DNA of 64,000 bases, taken from positions 30,092-94,091 of the forward strand of contig JAKFUG010000042.1 of NCBI GenBank assembly GCA_021732785.1. Reading direction: 5' to 3'. Each line of letters opens with the position of its first letter. Position 1 is the stretch's first letter. The notes under the pieces were generated by a model that worked only from the letters and a program-made list of their open reading frames with translations, was not told the DNA's origin and did no database searches. This document shows positions 2,320-19,400 of this stretch, piece by piece. The DNA is from Planctomycetaceae bacterium (GTDB lineage Bacteria; Planctomycetota; Planctomycetia; Planctomycetales; Planctomycetaceae). The position numbers and the translations under genes were made by a program.

Positions 2320-4764
2320 CTACCGCGGCCGATAGGTTTCCACGTGGATTTGTCCGTCCGACGTGATGCGGCAGCGCACACGGCCGGTTTGGGCGGTGCT
2401 GTGCCGTTGCGTTTCCGGCGGGAAGTTGGACTTCACGCGATCCAGAATGTCGCGATCCGCAGCGCTCGCGACCACCCATGTCGGATTGGTCCATGCGCCG
2501 AGTTCCGCCGGATTAGCATTGCGGCTGCCGTGATGCGGAGACAACAGCAAATCGACCGGCCGTCGCGGCGAACCGAGCAGCGCTGCCAACCCGTCACGTT
2601 CCAGATCACCGGTAAGCAGAATCCGCCGCCCGGCGTACGAAATGAGCAGCACCAGACTATTGGCATTGTCCCGCTCACCACGAAACCCCACCGCGGGATG
2701 CAGCACTTCCATGTCCATGGCCGGATCGAGAACGATGTGGTCACCCGCGGCAATCAATTGGCCATCGCCGGCCTGTTCGCCCCAGGTCGACACCACGGCG
2801 CTGGCGGTCGGTGTACGACTGCGGAGAAAGGTTTCGTGGATCAGCAACGTCCCGCAGGAGAGCCGGTCGGTGAGCATCGGCACGGCATTGCAGTGATCAC
2901 TATCCGCATGCGACACCACCAGCGCATCGAGCCGACGCCGCTTTCGTTGCCAGACGGCCTGACACACGGCATTCGCCGCCTGCTCCGGGTTGCCGAGACT
3001 CCCGGCGTCATACGCCAACAGTTTTCCCGACGGCGTCTCGATGATCACCGCCAGTCCGTGCCCCACACCGAGGATGTCGCATGTCAGTCCCGATGGCCCG
3101 GCGGAAACCAACCCGGAAAACAATCCCACGTTGATCCAGATCAACACCGCGAAAACCACAGCCCGCACGGCTCGGCGACCTTGGCAAAGTCCCCACAGCA
3201 GGCACGCATAAAATCCGAGAACCCACCATCCGTCCGGCCCGGCCACATAGCCGTGCCCCGAATCCCACGAGGCGGTCCATTGCGTTGCCAGCACCAACCC
3301 CTGCAGCAACAATTCGAACACGAACAGAAACGCGGGACTTAAGCCCGGCGCAACGGCGAGGACAGCCAGCCAGAGGTACCCCATCCAAAGCATCAGCCAC
3401 ACGTACGGCCCCATGAACACATTGAGCACGAAACCCACCGGCGAGCACAAATGAAACCGCCACAACACCAGCGGCAACGTGACGAACCACACCGCGGCAG
3501 TCGTCAGGTTGGCTTGCCATATCCACGAGCCGAGTGGTTGCCACAGCATGCGCCGCCACTTTTCGCGGGCGGTCAAATCGGGGGAAAGCCGCGCTGGGAC
3601 CGCCCCGTCAACAAGGTAAGGCACGACATGCGCCAACGCCGCCACGGAGAGAAACGACAACTGGGCGCCGGGGTTGAACAGGTCGGCAGGATTGGCGGCG
3701 AGCAGAAACGTGAGGGTCAACGATAATCCCTGCAATGGACTGATCCGGCGGCCGATCAATTCCGCGAATTGCACGAGCGCCGCGAATGTCGCCGCGCGCA
3801 CGATGGGCGGATTGGCATCGGTCAGCCAGACATAACCGCCGAGGCCCGCAAAGACGACAATCGCCGTCCAGCGGTACGACAATCCCAATCCCCGCGCTCC
3901 GCGGACCAGGCCAATCCAGATCACGCCGACGTTGACCCCCGAGATCGCGAGGACGTGCAGTGTGCCGCTTTCCATAAACGCCAGCCGCAAGTCGCCCGGC
4001 AATTGCGTGCGCGTGCCGAGCAGCAACGCCTCGGCGACCGCGGGGGTGGTGGTGAACGTGCTTTTGGCGAGGGCGGCACGAGTGTGCTGTCGCAATTCGT
4101 GACGAAGATTGCTGATTCGGTCCCGCCACCGGGGGGCAAACGCGTCTACTTGAATGGCTTCCCCGGAGCCGACGCGCAAGACGGCCTCCATGCCTTGGCT
4201 GCGCAACCAATCCTGATATTCAAAATCGCCGGGATTGAGTCCCGTCCGCGGTGGCATCAGACGACCGTTGATTGTCACCGCGGTTCCCGCCAGCAGCGTG
4301 GTCATCGGACCATCCACCACAATGCGCACGCGTCCGGAAAGTGGTCGAGGATCACCACCCGGTTGCGGAAGTTGCTGGCAATCGAGCAAGGTGACCGTTT
4401 CGAGCTTATCGCCGCGGTTCACCGTCCAGCTTGGCTCGAGAATCATTCCTTTCAGCGTGATGGGGCGGCTTTCGTCCTCCACGAGATGGGCGACGCTATC
4501 AGCCAATCGCGTGAACCAGCGGACGTGATGCCAACCGCCAAACGCGGCGGTCCAGGCGACGAAGAGACACACGGCGGTGTGCCGCACGGAAGCCCCCCAC
4601 ATCACGCCCATCGCGGAAACGGCAATCACCAGCCACCACAAAAGTGGGACTTCCAGCGACCGATCGAGAATAATCCCCGCGACCGCGGCCCCGGCAAGCC
4701 CGGCTGCCGGCGCACGGCCCGTTGCGGTTCGCTGCAGTCCGCCGGGATCGAGAAAGGAGAGCAT
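2320..4764 (-). CDS. comEC: DNA internalization-related competence protein ComEC/Rec2
   Basis: Polytopic membrane channel thought to carry single-stranded DNA across the inner membrane in natural transformation. The about 814-residue protein shows the full domain order: N-terminal membrane/soluble region (LVEDESRPITLKGMI...), the Competence membrane domain (LLLGTRTQLP, ALAISGVNVG-type segment, many hydrophobic helices), and a C-terminal metallo-beta-lactamase domain with metal-ligand motifs VVSHADSDHC, LTGDLERD and LSPHHGS. The frame opens 20 codons earlier at 4824, but that extension is polar and has no ribosome binding site. I prefer the ATG at 4764; neither start has a strong site. Upstream lies the divergent ExbB operon. 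With the nearby pilus genes this could form part of a DNA uptake route, which is inference only. Confidence 0.9.
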   Translation of the reverse strand: MLSFLDPGGLQRTATGRAPAAGLAGAAVAGIILDRSLEVPLLWWLVIAVSAMGVMWGASVRHTAVCLFVAWTAAFGGWHHVRWFTRLADSVAHLVEDESRPITLKGMILEPSWTVNRGDKLETVTLLDCQQLPQPGGDPRPLSGRVRIVVDGPMTTLLAGTAVTINGRLMPPRTGLNPGDFEYQDWLRSQGMEAVLRVGSGEAIQVDAFAPRWRDRISNLRHELRQHTRAALAKSTFTTTPAVAEALLLGTRTQLPGDLRLAFMESGTLHVLAISGVNVGVIWIGLVRGARGLGLSYRWTAIVVFAGLGGYVWLTDANPPIVRAATFAALVQFAELIGRRISPLQGLSLTLTFLLAANPADLFNPGAQLSFLSVAALAHVVPYLVDGAVPARLSPDLTAREKWRRMLWQPLGSWIWQANLTTAAVWFVTLPLVLWRFHLCSPVGFVLNVFMGPYVWLMLWMGYLWLAVLAVAPGLSPAFLFVFELLLQGLVLATQWTASWDSGHGYVAGPDGWWVLGFYACLLWGLCQGRRAVRAVVFAVLIWINVGLFSGLVSAGPSGLTCDILGVGHGLAVIIETPSGKLLAYDAGSLGNPEQAANAVCQAVWQRKRRRLDALVVSHADSDHCNAVPMLTDRLSCGTLLIHETFLRSRTPTASAVVSTWGEQAGDGQLIAAGDHIVLDPAMDMEVLHPAVGFRGERDNANSLVLLISYAGRRILLTGDLERDGLAALLGSPRRPVDLLLSPHHGSRNANPAELGAWTNPTWVVASAADRDILDRVKSNFPPETQRHSTAQTGRVRCRITSDGQIHVETYRPR

Positions 4765-4949: not shown

Positions 4950-5573
4950 ATGAATTCCCACCAGTTCGTCAATTTGCTGGAGGACTCTTCGTATGGGTTC
5001 CTCGCACTCAACTTTTTGTGGGGGATGTATTGCGTCATCCTGATCTGGCGACGGATCGGGCAACTCCGTTTCCGTTCCATCGAAGCGGAAACGGAATTCA
5101 TTGACACGTTGCAGGGCCACCTTAAGACCGGCAACTATGAAGCCGCCACGAAACAATGCGATTACGATTACCGCGCCTTGCCGCGATTGTGCTTGTTGAT
5201 GCTGGCCAATCGAACGCTGACCTACCCGCAACTCCGGCAACTGGTCTCGTCGAGCCTCCAGCGCAACATTCTGGCTGACCTCGAATATCGCATCAGTTGG
5301 ATTGTCACCGTGATCAAAAGCGGACCGCTGCTCGGTTTGTTCGGCACCGTGTTAGGGATGATGGGCGCGTTTGCCCGCATCGGCACAGGCGAAAAAGTGC
5401 AACCCTCACAGATCGCCGATGAAATCAGTATCGCTTTGATCTGTACGGCCATGGGGCTGGGAACGGCGATTCCGCTCGGCTATATCCTTTCGGCATTGAA
5501 CATTCGTGTGCGATCGTTGCAGGACTCGCTCGAAGCCAGCGTCGCCCGGGTGCTCGAACACTTCCGTCATTAA
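4950..5573 (+). CDS. MotA/TolQ/ExbB proton channel family protein
   Basis: Predicted inner-membrane proton channel subunit (207 aa). One membrane helix near residues 15-35 (YGFLALNFLWGMYCVILIW), a cytoplasmic middle part, then two helices in the conserved region (SWIVTVIKSGPLLGLFGTVLGMMGAF and ISIALICTAMGLGTAIPLGYIL). The GLFGTVLGMM and TAMGLGTAIP stretches are the hallmark of TolQ/ExbB/MotA. It heads a three-gene plus-strand operon with two ExbD-type partners (gaps of 20 and 4 bp). No TonB or TolA gene is in the window, so the energised outer-membrane partner is unknown. Confidence 0.9.
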   Translation: MNSHQFVNLLEDSSYGFLALNFLWGMYCVILIWRRIGQLRFRSIEAETEFIDTLQGHLKTGNYEAATKQCDYDYRALPRLCLLMLANRTLTYPQLRQLVSSSLQRNILADLEYRISWIVTVIKSGPLLGLFGTVLGMMGAFARIGTGEKVQPSQIADEISIALICTAMGLGTAIPLGYILSALNIRVRSLQDSLEASVARVLEHFRH

Positions 5574-5593: not shown

Positions 5594-6070
5594 ATGTCGC
5601 ACGCTGCTTTCCATTCCGAAGAGGACGAACCGCTGTCGCGGCGGAAGCCGATGCACGATGAAGCCAAGTTCGACATCACCGCGATGATCGACCTGGTTTT
5701 CATGATGAACATCTTCTTCCTCGTGACCACGGTGGGAGCGGCGCTTGCCGAAATGGATTTGCCGGTGGCCAAGCACGTGGTGGCGGCCGATCTCGATGCC
5801 GCGGTGGTCTTCTCGCTCACGGTGGATGCCAACGGTGGTGGCACCTTTCTCTATGTCGGCGATGGCGTTGATGGCGAACCGATCACCAGTCCCGAAGAGC
5901 AGACCAAGGCCATTCGCACCGCCGTGGAAGCCGGACTGGGCGACCAGAAGACGACCGTGCTCATTAAAGCCGAAAAGAATGTCCGGCTGCGCGATCTCAA
6001 TCGGGTGGCGTCCGCGGCCTCGGCCATTCAGGGCGTGGAATTGAAGCTCGCTGTGATCGAGATGGAGTGA
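5594..6070 (+). CDS. ExbD/TolR family biopolymer transport protein
   Basis: Second subunit of the proton-driven complex, 158 aa. A short cytoplasmic N-terminus is followed by a single membrane helix with the essential aspartate (FDITAMIDLVFMMNIFFLV, D33), then a periplasmic domain with the typical pattern ending in LNRVASAASAIQGVELKLAV. It lies 20 bp after the ExbB gene and 4 bp before a second ExbD gene. Two different ExbD proteins after one ExbB suggests a hetero-oligomeric ring or two alternative partners. Confidence 0.9.
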   Translation: MSHAAFHSEEDEPLSRRKPMHDEAKFDITAMIDLVFMMNIFFLVTTVGAALAEMDLPVAKHVVAADLDAAVVFSLTVDANGGGTFLYVGDGVDGEPITSPEEQTKAIRTAVEAGLGDQKTTVLIKAEKNVRLRDLNRVASAASAIQGVELKLAVIEME

Positions 6071-6074
6071 CGGA

Positions 6075-6686
6075 ATGGCACGCCCTTTTCGTTGTCCCGA
6101 ATGCAAGCATCCCCTTTCGCTCACACCGCATGAACGAAGGGCCGGGGTCGTGCTCTGCGCGAAATGCGGAGCACCGGTCGCTTTGCCGAAAGAGCAATCT
6201 CATTCCAACGTGCAAGCTGCGGCGGAGGGGAATGACGGCCCCCTGGGAAGACCGGGGCAGGAGATCGATCAGGAAGAGCTGATCGACATGACCGCCATGG
6301 TCGACATTGTGTTCTTCCTGCTGATTTTCTTTCTTGTGACATCGATGCACGCGCTGAATTCGTCCATCCCGCTTCCGGCACCCGATGCGCAAAAGGGGGC
6401 GGGCAGCAATTTGCAGACGCTGACCGATTTCGAAGAGAGCGCGGATTATGTGGTGGTGAATATCGACCGCAACGACGCCGTGCAAGTGGATGGTCTTCCC
6501 GTGGGTGGTCCCGATGATCTGCTGTTACGGTTGCAGGAACTCCGTCGCGCTCCCGCCGGACCAAACAAAATGCTGGTGGTCGGCCACGGCGATGCCTCGC
6601 ACGGCGCTGCTGTGATGGTGCTCGATGCCGGTCACGAAGCGGGTATGGACCGCGTACGGCTGTCGATTCAAGGCGATGTGGATTAA
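6075..6686 (+). CDS. ExbD/TolR family protein with N-terminal zinc ribbon
   Basis: 203 aa. Residues 1-35 form a putative zinc ribbon: C7-P-E-C10 and C28-A-K-C31 spaced by 17 residues. After a polar linker, residues 66-90 form the ExbD membrane helix with its aspartate (DMTAMVDIVFFLLIFFLV, D77), followed by a periplasmic domain (ADYVVVNIDRNDAVQVDG ... GMDRVRLSIQ). The ribbon would lie in the cytoplasm. ExbD proteins normally have only a short cytoplasmic tail, so the fusion is unusual and could sense zinc or redox state, or bind a cytoplasmic partner. The gene is 4 bp downstream of the first ExbD gene and ends the operon. Confidence 0.88.
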   Translation: MARPFRCPECKHPLSLTPHERRAGVVLCAKCGAPVALPKEQSHSNVQAAAEGNDGPLGRPGQEIDQEELIDMTAMVDIVFFLLIFFLVTSMHALNSSIPLPAPDAQKGAGSNLQTLTDFEESADYVVVNIDRNDAVQVDGLPVGGPDDLLLRLQELRRAPAGPNKMLVVGHGDASHGAAVMVLDAGHEAGMDRVRLSIQGDVD

Positions 6687-11622: not shown

Positions 11623-12690
11623 TTACTTCGATGTTGTTGGTTCAGATGCGGCTTCACTGAGCGATTCCGGTGCAGGTCCGCGCCGGACCATCATCACGGG
11701 TTCGCCATCGTCGATGAGCACGCCACCAATCACGCGGTCCCGGGCTTCCATCTCGGCGTGATCGCTGCTGAGTCGTTTCATTCGATGCGTGGACGTCGTG
11801 GTTCGACCATCCGCGAGGACACCGGTCAGTTTGACGATCCACGTTTCTTCATTCCGGGCCCAAACACCGCTGGCAAACCCGCCCTCGGAGTCGAACACCC
11901 AGGACCGGAGTTGCTTCAGTTGCGGATCCCAGGCGATATGCACCGTTCCATCGAGTGTGCCTTCCTCGGGGGTGTCCACATGAAACTGGCCGACAATAAA
12001 CTGCTCGTTGGACGACCAGCGATAAGACGTGCTGACAACGGATTCGTCGCTTTCATCAATCCAGTCGCCAATCAGCCATGCAATCTGGGCCAGGTGGTTA
12101 TCGACGGCAGCTTCCGTAGGCAGATCGCGGGCGCTGATCATCTTCCAAGCGTTCTCTTCTTTCGAATACACGACGGCGTAACGCGCGACTTCTTCCGCTT
12201 CTCCGGGAGCATGCACGATGCGCGTCGTGCCCTCTTCGATGGCGACCGCCTTTCCGAGGACCCGGATCGATTCGATTTGAATCGTCATCTTGGCTTCGGG
12301 GCTCCGTTCGAAGACATTTTTGAAGATTTTGGAAATCTCCTTCGTGCCTTGAGAGACTTCGCCGCCGATACTAATGATTTCCCCATTGGTGCTGAAGAAT
12401 GCCGTCAGAGCGTCAGCGTCGTGTTGATTGAACGCTTCTTCCACATCGCGAACGATCTTGCGAATCGCCTGCTCATCGGGAGACGCCTTTTTCGCATCTT
12501 CATTTTCAGCGCGACGGTCAGGTAGTGCGTCTTTATCGTTCGCGTCGACCTCAGGCTTAGAGGCCTTCTGAGCCGCGGGCTTGTCCTTTTCTTTCGCCGA
12601 TGTCTCTTTTTTGACTTGGCTTTCCGCTGCATAGAGCACCAACGTGCCTGCCAGCAAAGTCATCATCATTCCCACGACGCGCAGCGACAT
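11623..12690 (-). CDS. Secreted SnoaL/NTF2-like (SgcJ/EcaC-type) protein
   Basis: 355 aa. N-terminal signal peptide (MMMTLLAGTLVLYAAES), a highly charged linker (Lys/Glu/Ala-rich, about 25-70), then an NTF2-like cone domain of the SgcJ/EcaC type (EQAIRKIVRDVEEAFNQHDADALTAFFSTNGEIIS ... YAVVYSKEENAWKMISARDLP, about 72-195). The C-terminal 160 residues (IAWLIGDWIDESDES ... VWARNEETWIVKLTG) form a beta-rich domain common in uncharacterised planctomycete proteins. The family can bind small ligands or catalyse simple reactions, but no catalytic site is clear here. The ATG has AGGAG about 8 bases upstream. It lies first in a two-gene run with the TPR protein. Confidence 0.82.
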   Translation of the reverse strand: MSLRVVGMMMTLLAGTLVLYAAESQVKKETSAKEKDKPAAQKASKPEVDANDKDALPDRRAENEDAKKASPDEQAIRKIVRDVEEAFNQHDADALTAFFSTNGEIISIGGEVSQGTKEISKIFKNVFERSPEAKMTIQIESIRVLGKAVAIEEGTTRIVHAPGEAEEVARYAVVYSKEENAWKMISARDLPTEAAVDNHLAQIAWLIGDWIDESDESVVSTSYRWSSNEQFIVGQFHVDTPEEGTLDGTVHIAWDPQLKQLRSWVFDSEGGFASGVWARNEETWIVKLTGVLADGRTTTSTHRMKRLSSDHAEMEARDRVIGGVLIDDGEPVMMVRRGPAPESLSEAASEPTTSK

Positions 12691-13261
12691 CTTCCTACTC
12701 CTGATAAGCGGCTTCCGTGCTCAGACGCGAACTCTGAGACACACCAGTACGTTCGTGCGCAGCAACGACTGAACCGAGTCCGATGCCGAATTCGCGGCAT
12801 CGTCGTGCGCACACTGCGGTACGATTCGTTGCATGCGGCGTGCCGCGGAGTCAGAACCGTCGAATATGACGAGAATGCTCGCGATTGTCAGAAAGAGGAC
12901 GCGCACGATGAGTGCCGGTCACGCACGGTGGTAGATCAGCTTCCACCAGAGTGGGTGAGAGATTACCGATCATGCCCCTTTGTCACAGCAACGTAAGCAT
13001 GCTGACGTGATCACACACTGGGCAGCGACACGGTGGGCAAAGAAAGAAGCGGCATCTCATCTTGGAGACGGACCGGCAGTATTGATGCGCTAAATCACGG
13101 ACGTTCATTTGGGAGTTTGTCAGCAAGGTCTGACGTTCACCTCGGCCCTTCCGGGCGACCAGCGCATTCGGCAACGAGCCAACTCCTGGCCCGCGCGGTT
13201 CTTCGCCGTCCGCATGCTGAGTGCGTGACGGCGAAGTCCGCCTCGGGCGGAATTTGCGGTC
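12691..13261. other. Intergenic region, 571 bp
   Basis: No convincing gene. A 61-codon minus-strand frame (12721-12906, GTG start) begins with a hydrophobic stretch but has no ribosome binding site. Near the right end, 13201-13236 forms a long hairpin (CTTCGCCGTC paired with GACGGCGAAG plus an inner CGCA/TGCG) that may terminate the oxidoreductase gene on the minus strand; there is no T-run. Confidence 0.55.
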
Positions 13262-14632
13262 CTACAGATTGATCTCGAACCCCTTGCGATTTTCACGCGC
13301 GAGGAACGAATTCGCTTGAGTGTCGCCAATGATTTCTCGCTTGGCGGGATCCCACTTGAGTTCCCGGCCGAGACGCATGGCGATGTTCGACAGGTGGCAA
13401 ATCTCCAGCATGCGGTTGTGCGACCAGACATCGGAAATCGGCTGTTTTCGGGACTTCATGCCTTCGATGAAGTTCGCCGTATGGTTCGCGCTCACCTTCC
13501 CGCCATAGACTTTTTCGATCGCGTCTTCCGGCAAGGGCTTGTCCTTCAGCTCTTCCACCGGCTTGCCGGCGATCTTCCCACGGTTGACGAAGAACCGTCC
13601 CTCGGTTCCTTCGAACAGAATGCCATTGTCGCCTTCGCTGGTGATGATCATCTCCACATCGTTGGGCATCTGCACGCGGATGGTAAAGTCGGTCGCGGCA
13701 TTGTACTGATCGTCCACAACGGGATTGCCATCTTTGTATTCGACGGGCAATTTGTAGTTGACCGGCGTGACTTTGCTCGGCCCCGTATCGGTCGCACCGA
13801 GGGCCCAGCAGGCGATGTCGACATGATGGGCCCCCCAGTCGGTGAGCTTTCCGCCCGAGTATTCGTGCCAGTTTCGGAACGAGTAATGGCAGTTGCTGTA
13901 GAGGGGCACTCCGCCGCCGTAGCCCTGTCGGAGTTCCGGCAGCGCGCGATAGGGAACCCTGGCGGCCGGTCCGAGCCAGAAGTCCCAGTCAATCCCCTCG
14001 GGAACCGGAGCGACCGGAATGACGGGCGAGGCTTCCATACTGTTGATGCCGCAGGTCACTTTCTTCACGGTGCCAATGCGGCCATGGCGAATCAACGCGA
14101 TCGCCTGCAAGAACCGTTGATCGGCCTCGGTGCGCTGCATTGTACCGACCTGAAACACGCGGCCCGTTTCCTTCACAACCTTCTCGATCAGCTTGCCTTC
14201 ATTGATCGTCAGCGTGAGGGGCTTTTCGCAGTAGACATCTTTGCCGGCGTACATCGCTTCAATGGCGATCTTGGTGTGCCAGTGATCGGGTGTGGCGATC
14301 ATCACCGCGTCGATGTCTTTCCGTTCGAGAATCTTGCGATAGTCTTTGTAAGCATCCGGTTTCTTGCCCTGCTGCTTCTCGACCTTGGCAACATTTTCTG
14401 CCAGCACATTCGCATCGACGTCGGCCAGCGCTGCGAAATCGGCGAATCCGAACGACTTACTGGTAATGGCCCAGCCCTGGTTGCGCAGGCCAATGGTCGC
14501 GAACACCGGCCGTTCGCTCGCGGCTTGAAAACCGAAGGCCCGGTTGGCTGAAGGAAGCAGAATGCCTGCAGCGCCGGCGGCTGCGATGCCTTGAAGGAAC
14601 TGCCGCCGCGTTGGTTGCTGAGATGTGGCCAT
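13262..14632 (-). CDS. Tat-exported Gfo/Idh/MocA family oxidoreductase
   Basis: 456 aa. A twin-arginine signal (TRRQFLQGIAAAGAAGILLP) indicates folded export with bound cofactor. The NAD(P)-binding Rossmann part contains ALADVDANVLAENVAK and the family motif YCEKPLTLT (the EKP lysine acts in catalysis in known members). The C-terminal alpha/beta domain includes GGKLTDWGAHHVDIACW, the usual substrate-side histidines. Members act on sugars or inositol; the substrate here is unknown. The frame extends 38 codons upstream but without signal features; ATG at 14632 places the RR motif at residues 9-10. It diverges from the LuxR-type regulator at 15111. Confidence 0.88.
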   Translation of the reverse strand: MATSQQPTRRQFLQGIAAAGAAGILLPSANRAFGFQAASERPVFATIGLRNQGWAITSKSFGFADFAALADVDANVLAENVAKVEKQQGKKPDAYKDYRKILERKDIDAVMIATPDHWHTKIAIEAMYAGKDVYCEKPLTLTINEGKLIEKVVKETGRVFQVGTMQRTEADQRFLQAIALIRHGRIGTVKKVTCGINSMEASPVIPVAPVPEGIDWDFWLGPAARVPYRALPELRQGYGGGVPLYSNCHYSFRNWHEYSGGKLTDWGAHHVDIACWALGATDTGPSKVTPVNYKLPVEYKDGNPVVDDQYNAATDFTIRVQMPNDVEMIITSEGDNGILFEGTEGRFFVNRGKIAGKPVEELKDKPLPEDAIEKVYGGKVSANHTANFIEGMKSRKQPISDVWSHNRMLEICHLSNIAMRLGRELKWDPAKREIIGDTQANSFLARENRKGFEINL

Positions 14633-15110
14633 GAAAGAAAATCCGTAGTTGTGGAACTGAACGTCATTGACCGGGAGGGAAACGCCAAAGATAACAGAAA
14701 TTGTCGTCCGGATGAACATCTCGATTGGAAACCGGCGGGACTGCAATTCCGTGAGTCACCCCGTTCTTCGAGAGTCTTCCCAGGGCTTGTATTGGTCGTC
14801 GCCATGCAAAGGCATTCTTGCGTTTTCTCGGAATGCAGTTGGTTTGGGAGTGGTTGATCGGCGACCACTCCGTTCGATCTGCGGCCATTTTCCGAGAGGC
14901 TTGCGACCTCGCTGCGCCCGCGCATTGGTCTGAAAATCCGACAGGATCGCCCAATTTCCCGCGTGTGAAGCGGTCGATCCAATTTTCTCACATTTGGATG
15001 CGGCATTTGCTTCCCGAGGCTGGCAATTCCGTCTGGAAGGGTGGTTTCAGCAACCGCCCGAGCAGCGATTTTCCATCGCCTGCCATCGATTTGAAACGAG
15101 GAGACGACGC
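14633..15110. other. Divergent intergenic region between oxidoreductase and LuxR-type regulator
   Basis: 478 bp containing the upstream regions of both genes. I see no clear promoter match, small gene or repeat. A GAGGAG ribosome binding site for the regulator ends it. Confidence 0.6.
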
Positions 15111-15950
15111 ATGAATCTTGAGAGTGGTACCATTCCGTCCGTTCGAACACCGCAAGCCTTGAAAACGCCCACCGAAGTGAATCCCACTCCTCGTTTTGAC
15201 CATGCGAAGTACGATGAATCCTCCGAACTGACTCATCGCCCGCCGGCGTACCGAATGGTGGAAAATACGGCTTTGGAAACGGCCGTTTCTTCCGAGCGCA
15301 GAAGACCCATCACCGTCGTGGTTGTCGACAGCAATCGGGCCGTGGCGGAATTGCTGGGGGACTGCTTGTCGCATCATTCGTGGGTCGAAGGGACCCGTGT
15401 CTGCGATACGGTTGCGGAAGCGCTCCAGTGGATTGGAGCCGCGTCGGTCCCGCTGATTGTCTCCGAGGTTTCCTTTCGGGATCAAACGGGCTTCTATCTG
15501 GCGCAGGAAGCCCGCCGACAATGTCCGAACGCGAAAATTGCGATCTGGGCCGACCGTTTATCGGACAGTATGCTCGACCAATTCTTGCGGCTGCCCGTGC
15601 AGGGGGGCTTCCTGAAGCAGGATTCGCTGGCCTCTCTCGTGACCGGGTTGGCGAATATCGCTCAGGGAAAAACGCACTTCTCGACCCTGGTCCGACAACG
15701 GTTTGTGGACGGCGTTGCCCGGCCGGGAGCGGTTCGCGGTGCCGTGGCATTGAAGGGGTTTTCTCCCCGGCACCTGAACGTGCTGTTGCGACTGGCCGAG
15801 GGCGATTCGGTCAAGATGATCGCGATGGCACTCGGGGTTTCCGTGAAGACGATTGACTGCCTCAAATACCGCATGATGAAACAACTGCAACTGCACGACC
15901 GCGTGGAACTCGCCCGCTGGGCCATCGGCGAGGGATTGATCACCGCATAA
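15111..15950 (+). CDS. LuxR/NarL-type response regulator with atypical receiver
   Basis: 279 aa. Residues 1-65 are a poorly ordered extension. Residues 66-185 form a receiver domain (ITVVVVDSNRAVAELLGD ... GGFLKQDS), and residues 214-275 a LuxR-type helix-turn-helix (FSPRHLNVLLRLAEGDSVKM, then SVKTIDCLKYRMMKQL). In the receiver, the position that normally holds the phosphorylated aspartate is glutamate (LIVSE119VSFRDQTG), and the second acidic-pocket residue is serine (D73-S74). The switch lysine K169 is kept. This suggests a phosphate-independent or permanently active regulator. The ATG is set by GAGGAG. It precedes the giant hybrid kinase by 460 bp on the same strand. Confidence 0.88.
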   Translation: MNLESGTIPSVRTPQALKTPTEVNPTPRFDHAKYDESSELTHRPPAYRMVENTALETAVSSERRRPITVVVVDSNRAVAELLGDCLSHHSWVEGTRVCDTVAEALQWIGAASVPLIVSEVSFRDQTGFYLAQEARRQCPNAKIAIWADRLSDSMLDQFLRLPVQGGFLKQDSLASLVTGLANIAQGKTHFSTLVRQRFVDGVARPGAVRGAVALKGFSPRHLNVLLRLAEGDSVKMIAMALGVSVKTIDCLKYRMMKQLQLHDRVELARWAIGEGLITA

Positions 15951-16412
15951 TCGCGGTGATTCCGTTGGCATCTCGACACATCGCCCATCACGTTCCGGTT
16001 CTCGATCACCCGGAATGTTCTCGCATCCGGTTTCTTCGAGGGAACCGCGCCACAATGCCCAGCGGTTGCCGGCCGGAATTCTTCGTTCATGCACGTCTGA
16101 GCAGCCTCGATTTTCGAGAGCCCTGTTTGACGCTTTACCGGCCAATTTGAACGTTGCGAAATCAGCGCCACAGTTCACTTCGGCACGTCTTCACGGTTCA
16201 GATTGTCGTCTGAAACGCGCATCCTTCCGCCTGCGGGTTGCGGCGATGAATTCCGTCGCAAATCTTCTTGAGAAAACCTCTTCGGCGCTCAGCATTCGAC
16301 GCTAATCGACTTCGACGTCCGAGCTTCTCCCCGTGTTGTGAGGTGTCTTCCTCTGTTGGCACGCCGGATGCGTAGTGCGGCCACAGCGAATCACCGCTTT
16401 GGAATCACGATC
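15951..16412. other. Intergenic region upstream of the CheB/CheR hybrid
   Basis: 462 bp. No gene with a ribosome binding site, no clear hairpin or repeat. It presumably holds the promoter of the hybrid kinase. Confidence 0.5.
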
Positions 16413-19400
16413 ATGGCCGAATCTCCCGAACCGATCCCTGATGCGGCAACCGTTTCGAGTAAGCCCACGCACATTGTGGGTGTGGGTGCCTCCGCCGGTG
16501 GTCTGGAAGCCCTGGAACGAATGTTTCAAAATATGCCGACCGAAACCGGTATGGCGTTTGTCATCGTGCAGCACCTTTCGCCCGATTTCAAAAGTCTCAT
16601 GGACGAATTGCTGGCAAGATGGACGAGTTTGCCCATTCATCGCGTGCAAAACGGAATGGAAGTCGAAGCGAATTCGATTTACCTGCTTCCGCCGCGGAAA
16701 GAAATGATTATCTCAGCCGGGAAACTTTTGCTCACGGATAAAGATCCCGAGCATGGGTTGTCCCTTCCGATTGATCATTTTTTGCGTTCCCTCGCCCAGG
16801 ACTGCGGTGCGGCGTCCGTTGCCGTCATTCTGTCGGGAACCGGCAGCGACGGTTCCCGTGGTTTGGAAGACATTAAACTGGCGGGCGGGCTCGTCATCGC
16901 GCAATCCGTCCGGTCGGCCAAGTTCGATGGCATGCCCAACGCCGCTCGCGAGACGGGGTTCGTGGATCTCACACTCGACCCCGAAGAGATCGGCGACGCC
17001 CTGCGCGATTACCGATCCAGCATTGATGTGGAACAGTTTGCTGCCGATCATACGCACACGGTCGCCGATGAAGATTCGCTCTCCGCGATTTTCCGTCTGC
17101 TGCGCGATCGGTATGGAATCGATTTCTCGCATTACAAATTGAACACGGTCGTTCGTCGGACCGAGCGCCGCTTGCAGATCGCGCACGTCGAATCGGTGCA
17201 GGAGTATGCCGCCCTGGTCGCAAATGATACCGAGGAACTGGATGCCCTGTATCGCGATCTACTGGTGGGGGTCACCCGTTTCTTTCGTGATCCCGACGCT
17301 TACCACAGTCTGGAACAACATCTCGATGACATCATCGCGACAAAGAAGCCGGACACCGAACTGCGGACGTGGATTGCGGGTTGTGCCACGGGGGAGGAAG
17401 CCTACTCGCTGGCGATTCTGCTACACGAACGCGTGCAAGCCAGCGGTATCCCGTTGACGATCCGCGTCTTCGCCACCGATGTGCATCGACGCTCGCTGGA
17501 AGTCGCCGGGGAAGCGGTCTATCGTCCGGAAAGCCTGACGGAAATCCCGCCGCATCGCATCGAGCAATTCTTCAATCGTCTCGATCACGGTTACGCCTTG
17601 AAGCAGGTGATTCGCCAGTCGGTCGTGCTCGCCCAGCACAACATCATCAAAGATGCGCCCTTCACGCGGATGGACCTGATTTCCTGCCGGAATCTGCTGA
17701 TCTATCTCCAACCCATTGCGCAGAAAAAAGCGATTTCGCTGTTCCACTTCGGCCTGCGGATGGGGGGCTTGCTGTTTCTCGGACCGAGTGAATCGCCCGC
17801 GGAACTGGAAGAAGAATTCGATATTCTCGACGCACATTGGAAGATCTATCGCAAGCGCCGCGATGTCCGATTGCCGGTCGACTTGCGAATCACCCCCACC
17901 ATCCCGGGCCGGCTGGTTCGCGCCTCGGGATTGCCGGAAATTTCTACCGGAGGCTCGCGCTCCATTGATGCCATGCTGCTCGGCACGTACGACTCGCTGC
18001 TCTCCGAGTACATGCCACCGGCCTTGCTGATCAATCAACGACACGAATTGCTGCATGTGTTCGGCGACGCCGGGCGCTTCCTGCAACACAAGGCGGGACG
18101 AACCGGGAGAAACATTCTCGAACTGATGGAATCGCCCCTGCGGTTGGCCATCTCCGGTGCGATTCAGCAGATTCACAACAAACGCAAGCAGGAGATGAAG
18201 CTCCGCGGGATCAAGGTCGACACACCGACGGGCCAGGAACGGATCGCCGTCACTGTCCGTACGGTGGTCAATCAACGGACGCAATCGGCGGATCTGCTGA
18301 TTCTGCTGGAAACGATGCACGATAATGCGTCGGCGGTAATTCCGCCTCCGGACGCCCACGAGGCCACACCGCTCAACCCGGCCTCCGCCGAACAGATCGA
18401 ATCGCTCGAAGCCGAACTGCGGTACACGAAAGAAAACCTGCAGGCGACGGTCGAGGAGTTGGAGACCAGCAACGAAGAACTGCAAGCCAGCAACGAAGAA
18501 CTCGTGGCGTCGAACGAAGAACTGCAAAGCACGAACGAGGAACTCCATTCGGTCAACGAAGAACTCTACACCGTGAATGCCGAACATCAGCGCAAGATTC
18601 ACGAATTAACCGTGCTGACGGACGACATGGAAAACCTGCTGGCAAGCACGCAGGTCCACACGATCTTCCTCGATCGCGAACTGCGGATTCGCAAGTTCAC
18701 ACCTCACATTGCCGAAGTCTTCAGCTTCGTGACCAGCGATCTCGGCCGGTCGTTCGATAGTTTTTCCCACCGGTTATTGCGCGACAAATTGTCCGCGGAG
18801 GTGGCACAGGTGCTCCAGACCGGCGAACCGATCGAAGCCGAAGTGCAGGACATCACCGACCATTGGTATTTGATGCGAATTCTGCCGTACCTCACCAAAG
18901 GACAATTGGAAGGCGTCGTGTTAACACTCGTCGACATCGATTCGTTGAAGAGTGCGCAGCAGGACCTGGCCCGCCGCGAATTCGAATTGCGGATGATCGC
19001 CGACCGTGTTCCCTCACTCATCAGTTGCGTGGACCGGAATCTCCGCTACACCTATGTCAACCAGCGTTACAGCGAGCTCTTTGGCAAGTCACCCGAAGAG
19101 ATCGTCGGAACTTCCATGGTGGACTTGCTCGGCGAGAAACAATTCGAGGAGATTCGGCCGCAGATCGAAGAGGCCTTGTCGGGAACTCCCGTCGAATTTG
19201 AAAAGCGTTTCGAACTTCCCAACGGTCGCCGCTTCTGGGCCATCGTCAGTTATTCGCCCGACACGACCGGCAGCAACGGCCTCGTCTCCGGTCTGTTTGT
19301 CTGCAAGCATCTCGTCACCGCCATTAAGGAAAGCGAACAGCGCTTCGAACGGGCTGTCCGCGGCACCACCGACGGCATCTGGGATTGGGACATCACCACC

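Follow-up and report, generated by a model that had tools for sequence, protein, structure and literature searches.

A conserved and exchangeable Cys4 head on an ExbD-type subunit of a putative envelope motor in Planctomycetia

What could a small cysteine-rich module be doing at the head of a motor subunit? The question is raised by a gene trio in the window, i.e. the whole 64,000-nucleotide stretch of Planctomycetaceae DNA that we have analysed, in which an ExbB gene is followed by two different ExbD genes (ExbD1 and ExbD2): the product of the second one carries two CxxC pairs, arranged as in a zinc ribbon, ahead of its membrane helix. Motors of the ExbB/ExbD family are proton-driven; to our knowledge, their switching and their placement in the cell are little understood, and the envelope machinery of planctomycetes is poorly known. 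Here, we have found that the subunit that provides the pore helix carries a conserved head, predicted to be cytoplasmic, whose place is taken in one clade by an entire protein kinase; the switching and the placement of such a motor thereby become directly testable in culturable planctomycetes. The reading that we favour, with a confidence somewhat above even, is that the head is a tethered docking or switch module on the ExbD2 of an envelope motor, probably tied to phospho-signalling and located outside the proton path.

The three genes of the trio are located on the forward strand: ExbB (4950-5573, 207 residues) is a proton channel of the MotA/TolQ/ExbB type (PF01618, E = 1.5e-21), ExbD1 (5594-6070, 158 residues) is an ordinary, short-tailed ExbD with its membrane aspartate in the motif DITAMID (PF02472, E = 2.5e-12), and ExbD2 (6075-6686, 203 residues) is the protein with the Cys4 head (PF02472, E = 4.5e-19). 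All three are above the Pfam cut-offs (ExbD2 with 69.2 bits against a gathering threshold of 25.4), and the ExbB partner of ExbD2 is encoded two genes upstream of it; the ExbB-ExbD-ExbD operon of a preliminary description of this DNA is confirmed by these matches, one to PF01618 and two to PF02472, as well as by its recurrence in related loci. The frame of ExbD2 starts with an ATG at 6075, preceded at a distance of 7 bases by a GGAG (6064-6067), and ends with the stop codon at 6684-6686.

ExbD2 has the architecture of the ExbD/TolR proteins, i.e. one membrane helix with a conserved aspartate, followed by a periplasmic alpha/beta domain. Its Cys4 head (residues 1-40, 6075-6194) contains the only cysteines of the protein, C7, C10, C28 and C31 (codons 6093-6095, 6102-6104, 6156-6158 and 6165-6167), and is followed by a linker (residues 41-65, 6195-6269), by the helix (residues 67-96, 6273-6362), which bears the membrane aspartate Asp77 in the motif IDMTAMVD, and by the periplasmic domain (residues 113-203, 6411-6683). 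In the AlphaFold2 model of the protein (m7040495196b6), the block means of the predicted local distance difference test (pLDDT) are 84-89 for the head and 88-97 for the periplasmic domain, with the linker being disordered (pLDDT below 50 at residues 43-61) and a helix spanning residues 67-96. All five PDB matches that Foldseek returns for ExbD2 at E <= 0.001 are periplasmic domains of ExbD/TolR, 8p9r and 5by4 among them; residues D71, T73, M75 and D77 are invariant in the alignment A1 that is described below, and the aspartate motif is detected by pattern in 87 of 93 ExbD2 cores. Judged by sequence and model, ExbD2 is a genuine subunit of the ExbD type, belonging to a motor that is driven by the proton motive force and that would combine one ExbB with two different ExbD; its head would be located in the cytoplasm, according to the topology of ExbD, and is predicted to be, probably, a zinc-binding ribbon module.

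The conservation of the head has been examined in 49 loci whose ExbD2 exceeds 55 bits: the locus of the window itself, 29 from a protein search in 392 genomes of the phylum, of which the best 30 loci were kept, and 19 from a pattern scan across 84,980 species. Two copies of the window (L002 and L005) have been dropped from this count and ExbD matches below 55 bits have been excluded; the 49 loci are not all independent, L055 and L056 being near copies. The pattern CxxC-x16/17-CxxC is present in 47 of them; the exceptions are L047, which ends at the end of its contig, and L048, whose ExbD2 (3965-4462, plus strand; 158 bits) belongs to this type but lacks the ribbon, with ExbB and ExbD1 retained. 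The four cysteines are invariant in A1 (28 proteins, the window's included, with 30% mean column identity) and in a further alignment, A4, partly by construction in A1, because its rows were chosen from the 47 carriers of the motif, as the rows of A4 were likewise chosen with it; the other columns of the head in A1 hold one more invariant residue, Met1, and F5 conserved at a level of at least 90%. When L048 is added (alignment A5, 19 rows), the four cysteines are still at least 90% conserved. The profile of A1 matches 354 of 397 Planctomycetia genomes at 1e-10, and those of the weaker matches in the class that we have inspected correspond to other heads or to ordinary ExbD proteins. Among the matches listed from other classes (392 genomes of the phylum), none begins before position 26 of the A1 profile, but members of the class with long linkers also begin late (33-73), so that a distant ribbon could escape this comparison. 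Outside the phylum, the pattern scan has revealed 15 loci, all in Bacteroidota, with 11-35 residues preceding the ExbD core, the patterns having been taken from the window's protein and thus being biased to near relatives. The four cysteines that the preliminary description had placed ahead of the membrane helix are therefore present and kept in the orthologues, and the fusion of ribbon and ExbD that it had noticed in one genome recurs in 47 of the 49 loci; on this comparison, the head is not a chance pattern.

Since Pfam alone is insufficient to identify the head (every match of the ExbD2 head to a zinc-finger or zinc-ribbon family is under the cut-off, e.g. zf_UBZ with 20.5 against 25.6 and Zn_ribbon_3 with 17.5 against 27 bits), the ribbon has been secured by the comparison of its relatives. 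In the PDB, the profile of the ribbon matches the lysine biosynthesis protein 5k2m (2.3e-5), LysW (3.2e-5), AgmX/GltJ of Myxococcus (7zok, the third-best match, E = 7.5e-5), subunit P of RNA polymerase (9e-5) and YebS (0.016). LysW, subunit P and YebS share with ExbD2 a CxxC-CxxC ribbon and have other functions; because they show how common this fold is, the match with GltJ is only suggestive. The zinc finger of GltJ and its GYF domain reportedly form a switch that is read by MglA, in work attributed to Attia et al. in 2024.

The comparison of the regions that precede the ExbD core has revealed that the head varies in kind. We have collected 93 distinct ExbD2 cores above 100 bits, pooled from several searches rather than sampled at random and with identical cores collapsed: 64 are preceded by a ribbon, nine by a kinase, nine by a GYF-like head, and 11 by another head, by a short one or by a truncated one; three of this last class (L047, L142 and L147) are cut on their N-terminal side. 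A tenth kinase head occurs at 99 bits, and 20 further rows at 60-100 bits comprise eight GYF-like heads and 12 with no head or a short one, although one protein counted as headless (L159, 61 bits) displays a ribbon on reading. The Ser/Thr kinase replaces the ribbon in ten genomes from four genera of the window's family (L141, L144-L146, L148-L150, L153, L154 and L157), with the HRD and DFG motifs present; in the one chain that has been scanned, kinase and ExbD occur together (PF00069, E = 1.1e-48; PF02472, E = 1.6e-19). In other families, the head of ExbD2 is short or weakly resembles a GYF domain. The GYF-like class rests on our own profile, built partly from the same heads: the Pfam family GYF_2 matches two of the heads scanned at 0.011 and 0.0084, i.e. 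under the cut-off, none of the four PDB matches is a GYF structure, and the profiles of the ribbon and of the GYF-like head, when compared, are unrelated. The linker is variable, too: from the last cysteine to the motif DxTxMxD, it measures 39-265 residues in the 64 ribbon proteins, with a median of 77. As far as these sequences tell, the head of ExbD2 is interchangeable. A cysteine head is also found beside a kinase in the window's own genome, where a weak ribbon match (C16:53352-53432, E = 0.08) heads a frame with protein-kinase motifs.

Our comparison of the genes around the trio has been conducted in 61 loci, with five loci left out because of ExbD cores below 85 bits (L208 and L224-L227) and with one genome represented twice (L039 and L134). 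ExbB adjoins ExbD2 in 59 of the 61, and a second ExbD is encoded directly upstream in 60, which makes the heteromeric complex suggested by the preliminary description plausible, although the arrangement itself is not new. The ExbB proteins of the related loci contain both the motifs GxxGT[VLI]xGM and TxxGL in 46 of 59 cases, and one of the two in the remaining 13. The trio belongs to a block that recurs across Planctomycetia and that consists of a toroid/HEAT-like protein (c8), a TonB-shaped protein (c5), ExbB, ExbD1, ExbD2 and a propeller protein (c4): the c4 gene is located downstream in 45 of the 61 loci, c5 is present in 43 and c8 in 18, all three counts being lower bounds because many loci are short. 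The c8 protein is recognised through SQHop_cyclase_C in L052 (7.3e-8) and through HEAT_2 in the window genome's own copy (4.4e-7); c5 consists of a transmembrane helix, a disordered linker and a C-terminal domain; c4, with about 1,000-1,300 residues, combines a cytoplasmic head with a PQQ/BamB-like propeller and, in most cases, a membrane helix; some of these proteins also show weak TPR matches. The genome of the window has c8, c5 and c4 together on contig C2 (337042-343254; positions 12043-18255 of locus L133, minus strand), where no ExbB-ExbD pair separates c5 from c4, and the trio on contig C19; in a genome of the same genus (L084), c4 adjoins the trio. The simplest reading of these positions would be that the block has been split over two contigs in the window's lineage, with its parts retained. 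One related locus (L200, 4174-11151, plus strand) contains an ExbD2 core and a Cys4 motif within one open frame of 2,326 residues, and no recognised ExbB alongside.

The propeller protein carries a head of its own, which is of the FHA type in the ribbon genomes of the window's family (e.g. PF00498 at 5e-8 in c4 of L080) and a small helical domain in other families. The heads of the two proteins vary together: an FHA-type or helical head is present on c4 in 27 of the 28 systems with a ribbon on ExbD2 and in none of the nine with a kinase, and a helical head is present in five of the six with another head on ExbD2. In this count, the split block of the window is entered once and the genome of L039 and L134 twice, and c4 proteins below 900 residues, including the cut one of the kinase locus L194, are excluded. 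In an unrooted tree of the c4 propellers, from which L039 has been left out as it shares its genome with L134, the nine kinase systems form one fully supported clade; they share one side of a fully supported branch with 14 FHA rows, and their exact place there is only moderately supported. Most simply, the ribbon would have been replaced and the FHA head lost on one branch; the covariation suggests a joint action of ribbon and FHA, though it carries no statistical weight.

From these findings, we propose that ExbB and the two aspartate-bearing ExbD proteins would assemble into an ordinary, proton-driven motor part, and that this would power a planctomycete envelope machine together with the TonB-shaped protein, the propeller protein with its FHA-type or helical head, and the toroid/HEAT-like protein. 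The Cys4 module, binding zinc as predicted, would hang in the cytoplasm on its flexible linker and would most likely serve for docking or switching: it would bring in a partner from the cytoplasm, or receive a signal for on/off control or for positioning, probably as a part of signalling by Ser/Thr kinases and phosphothreonine; the proton path would not pass through it. Ser/Thr phosphorylation is indicated as the signal by the kinase alternative and by the FHA-type partner. The head would thus probably plug the motor into the signalling of the cell rather than form a part of the channel; if this is true, the motor is controlled via its own pore subunit and, in some lineages, by a kinase that is covalently built in. 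We consider it an even chance that Planctomycetia have an undescribed trans-envelope proton motor with interchangeable signalling heads (ribbon, Ser/Thr kinase, GYF-like) on an ExbD subunit.

The preliminary description had left two roles for the ribbon side by side, i.e. gating the proton channel or linking it to a cytoplasmic partner, and it is the link to a partner that the present comparison favours. A role in gating or plugging the ExbB/ExbD channel at its cytoplasmic mouth, with opening perhaps by zinc or by redox state, would agree with the position of the ribbon ahead of the membrane helix and with the window's protein having the shortest linker of the 64 (39 residues); against it, the linker varies widely in length and is predicted to be disordered in the window's protein, the head gives way to a kinase, to a GYF-like domain or to short tails with the genes of the motor staying in place, and the same head occurs on many other frames of the genome. 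We have dropped gating as the leading idea because of the varying linker and the replaced head, and consider it improbable; docking or switching is likelier because the head is flexibly tethered and interchangeable. Still more doubtful is the membership of the trio in an ordinary Ton or Tol energiser, which is what the ExbB/ExbD families and the fold would suggest: the equivalog cut-offs for TolR, ExbD and TolQ/ExbB are not reached (for TIGR02803 and TIGR02801, ExbD1 attains 19.6 of 152.95 and ExbD2 22.4 of 127.3), which is why we have rejected this assignment, and the partner genes are unlike those which general knowledge assigns to Tol-Pal and Ton loci. If the ribbon were a relic, or if the frame had been annotated too far upstream and translation truly started nearer the membrane helix, this would fit L048, where ExbD2 exists without the ribbon, but either case is hardly credible with the GGAG located 7 bases before the ATG and with the cysteine pattern in 47 of 49 loci.

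The docking or switch reading has to be weighed against a further alternative and against several findings that count against it. The ribbon could be a generic N-terminal module of planctomycetes, serving something unspecific such as stability, folding, membrane targeting or the handling of membrane proteins, with no role particular to the motor: LysW-type proteins score slightly above GltJ with the ribbon profile, 17 frames of the window's genome, ExbD2 among them, bear the ribbon at E < 1e-5 (150 of 463 candidates scored), and in 15 of these frames the ribbon is succeeded by a strongly hydrophobic stretch. The ribbon, being common in the genome and not confined to ExbD, may therefore be less specific than it appears. 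We regard this alternative as unlikely, if the most serious one, as the Cys4 head is found on a single one of the genome's seven ExbD matches (none of the other six has a ribbon head when read by eye, and the ribbon scan of the genome places none there), is kept in 47 of 49 relatives, and is substituted by a kinase in one clade instead of being plainly lost. Further points concern the partners: c5 has no Pfam match, and its model, of low confidence (mean pLDDT 52; best Foldseek E 0.06, best VIA Z 3.0), gives no clear fold match either for or against a C-terminal domain of the TonB or TolA type; the c4 of the window's genome matches only Yop-YscD_cpl at 0.001, under the cut-off, with FHA not listed; the trio is alone in 12 of the 61 loci and nothing is recognised in L200, so that the stretch read contains neither a propeller gene nor a TonB-shaped one in 13, and no propeller gene has been called in L224-L227. 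The covariation of kinase and FHA amounts to one event and not to nine, since the kinase systems form one clade, and its set omits the ExbD cores below 85 bits and has also seeded the head classes. Lastly, in a search limited to PF08477, the best match in the window's genome attains 23.7 bits, with a cut-off of 27; with no Roc-type GTPase, the kind to which MglA, the partner of GltJ, might belong, above the cut-off, the partner may be another protein.

The system that most resembles the proposed one is AglRQS-Glt of Myxococcus xanthus, in which, according to PMC3169522, the ExbB-type AglR is accompanied by two ExbD-type proteins, AglQ and AglS; a two-hybrid test has linked AglR to the membrane partner GltG, in which a cytosolic FHA head and a TonB domain are combined, and TPR proteins also belong to Glt. 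As of a 2022 review, it was not settled if AglQ and AglS pair as hetero- or as homodimers, and GltJ is listed among the effectors of MglA (PMC12288465). The likeness therefore extends from one ExbB with two ExbD to an FHA-headed membrane partner, TPR proteins and a ribbon on AgmX (i.e. GltJ). The differences are that the ribbon of the gliding machinery is located on a separate adaptor, GltJ, and that of planctomycetes on ExbD itself; that FHA is joined there to a TonB domain and here to a propeller; and that a Roc-type GTPase above the PF08477 cut-off, the sole GTPase family searched, is missing from the window's genome. A TolQ with a pair of TolR and with vWA force transducers has been described in the Planctomycetota-Verrucomicrobiota-Chlamydiota (PVC) bacteria, Planctomycetes included (PMC12204202); the paired TolR/ExbD is shared with the present motor, but the planctomycete block has propeller, FHA-type and toroid partners, with no vWA among the Pfam matches of the partner proteins scanned, and heads on TolR/ExbD are not mentioned in section 8 of that source. 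With Ton (ExbB-ExbD-TonB) and Tol (TolQ-TolR-TolA), the planctomycete motor shares the ExbB/ExbD families, the membrane aspartate and the periplasmic fold, and it differs from them in its two distinct ExbD, its cytoplasmic Cys4 head and its other partner genes. An ExbB with two ExbD is thus already known, as are FHA or ribbon heads on the partners of such motors; the conserved ribbon, or kinase, that is fused to the ExbD subunit itself has not been seen in the literature that we have searched, i.e. among the titles and abstract openings listed, with most subscription papers outside the search.

Some minor observations concern the surroundings. Two adjoining ribbon-headed membrane-protein frames of the window's genome (contig C50, 5716-6868; 333 and 343 residues) are 44% identical over 330 columns, i.e. 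they are tandem paralogues. In the window, the trio is flanked on the opposite strand by two frames, one ComEC/Rec2-like and the other SGNH-hydrolase-like, and two further frames are located on the minus strand, a CpaA-like prepilin peptidase (934-1500) and a Flp-pilin-like protein (1838-2203); all four have been named by reading their translations.
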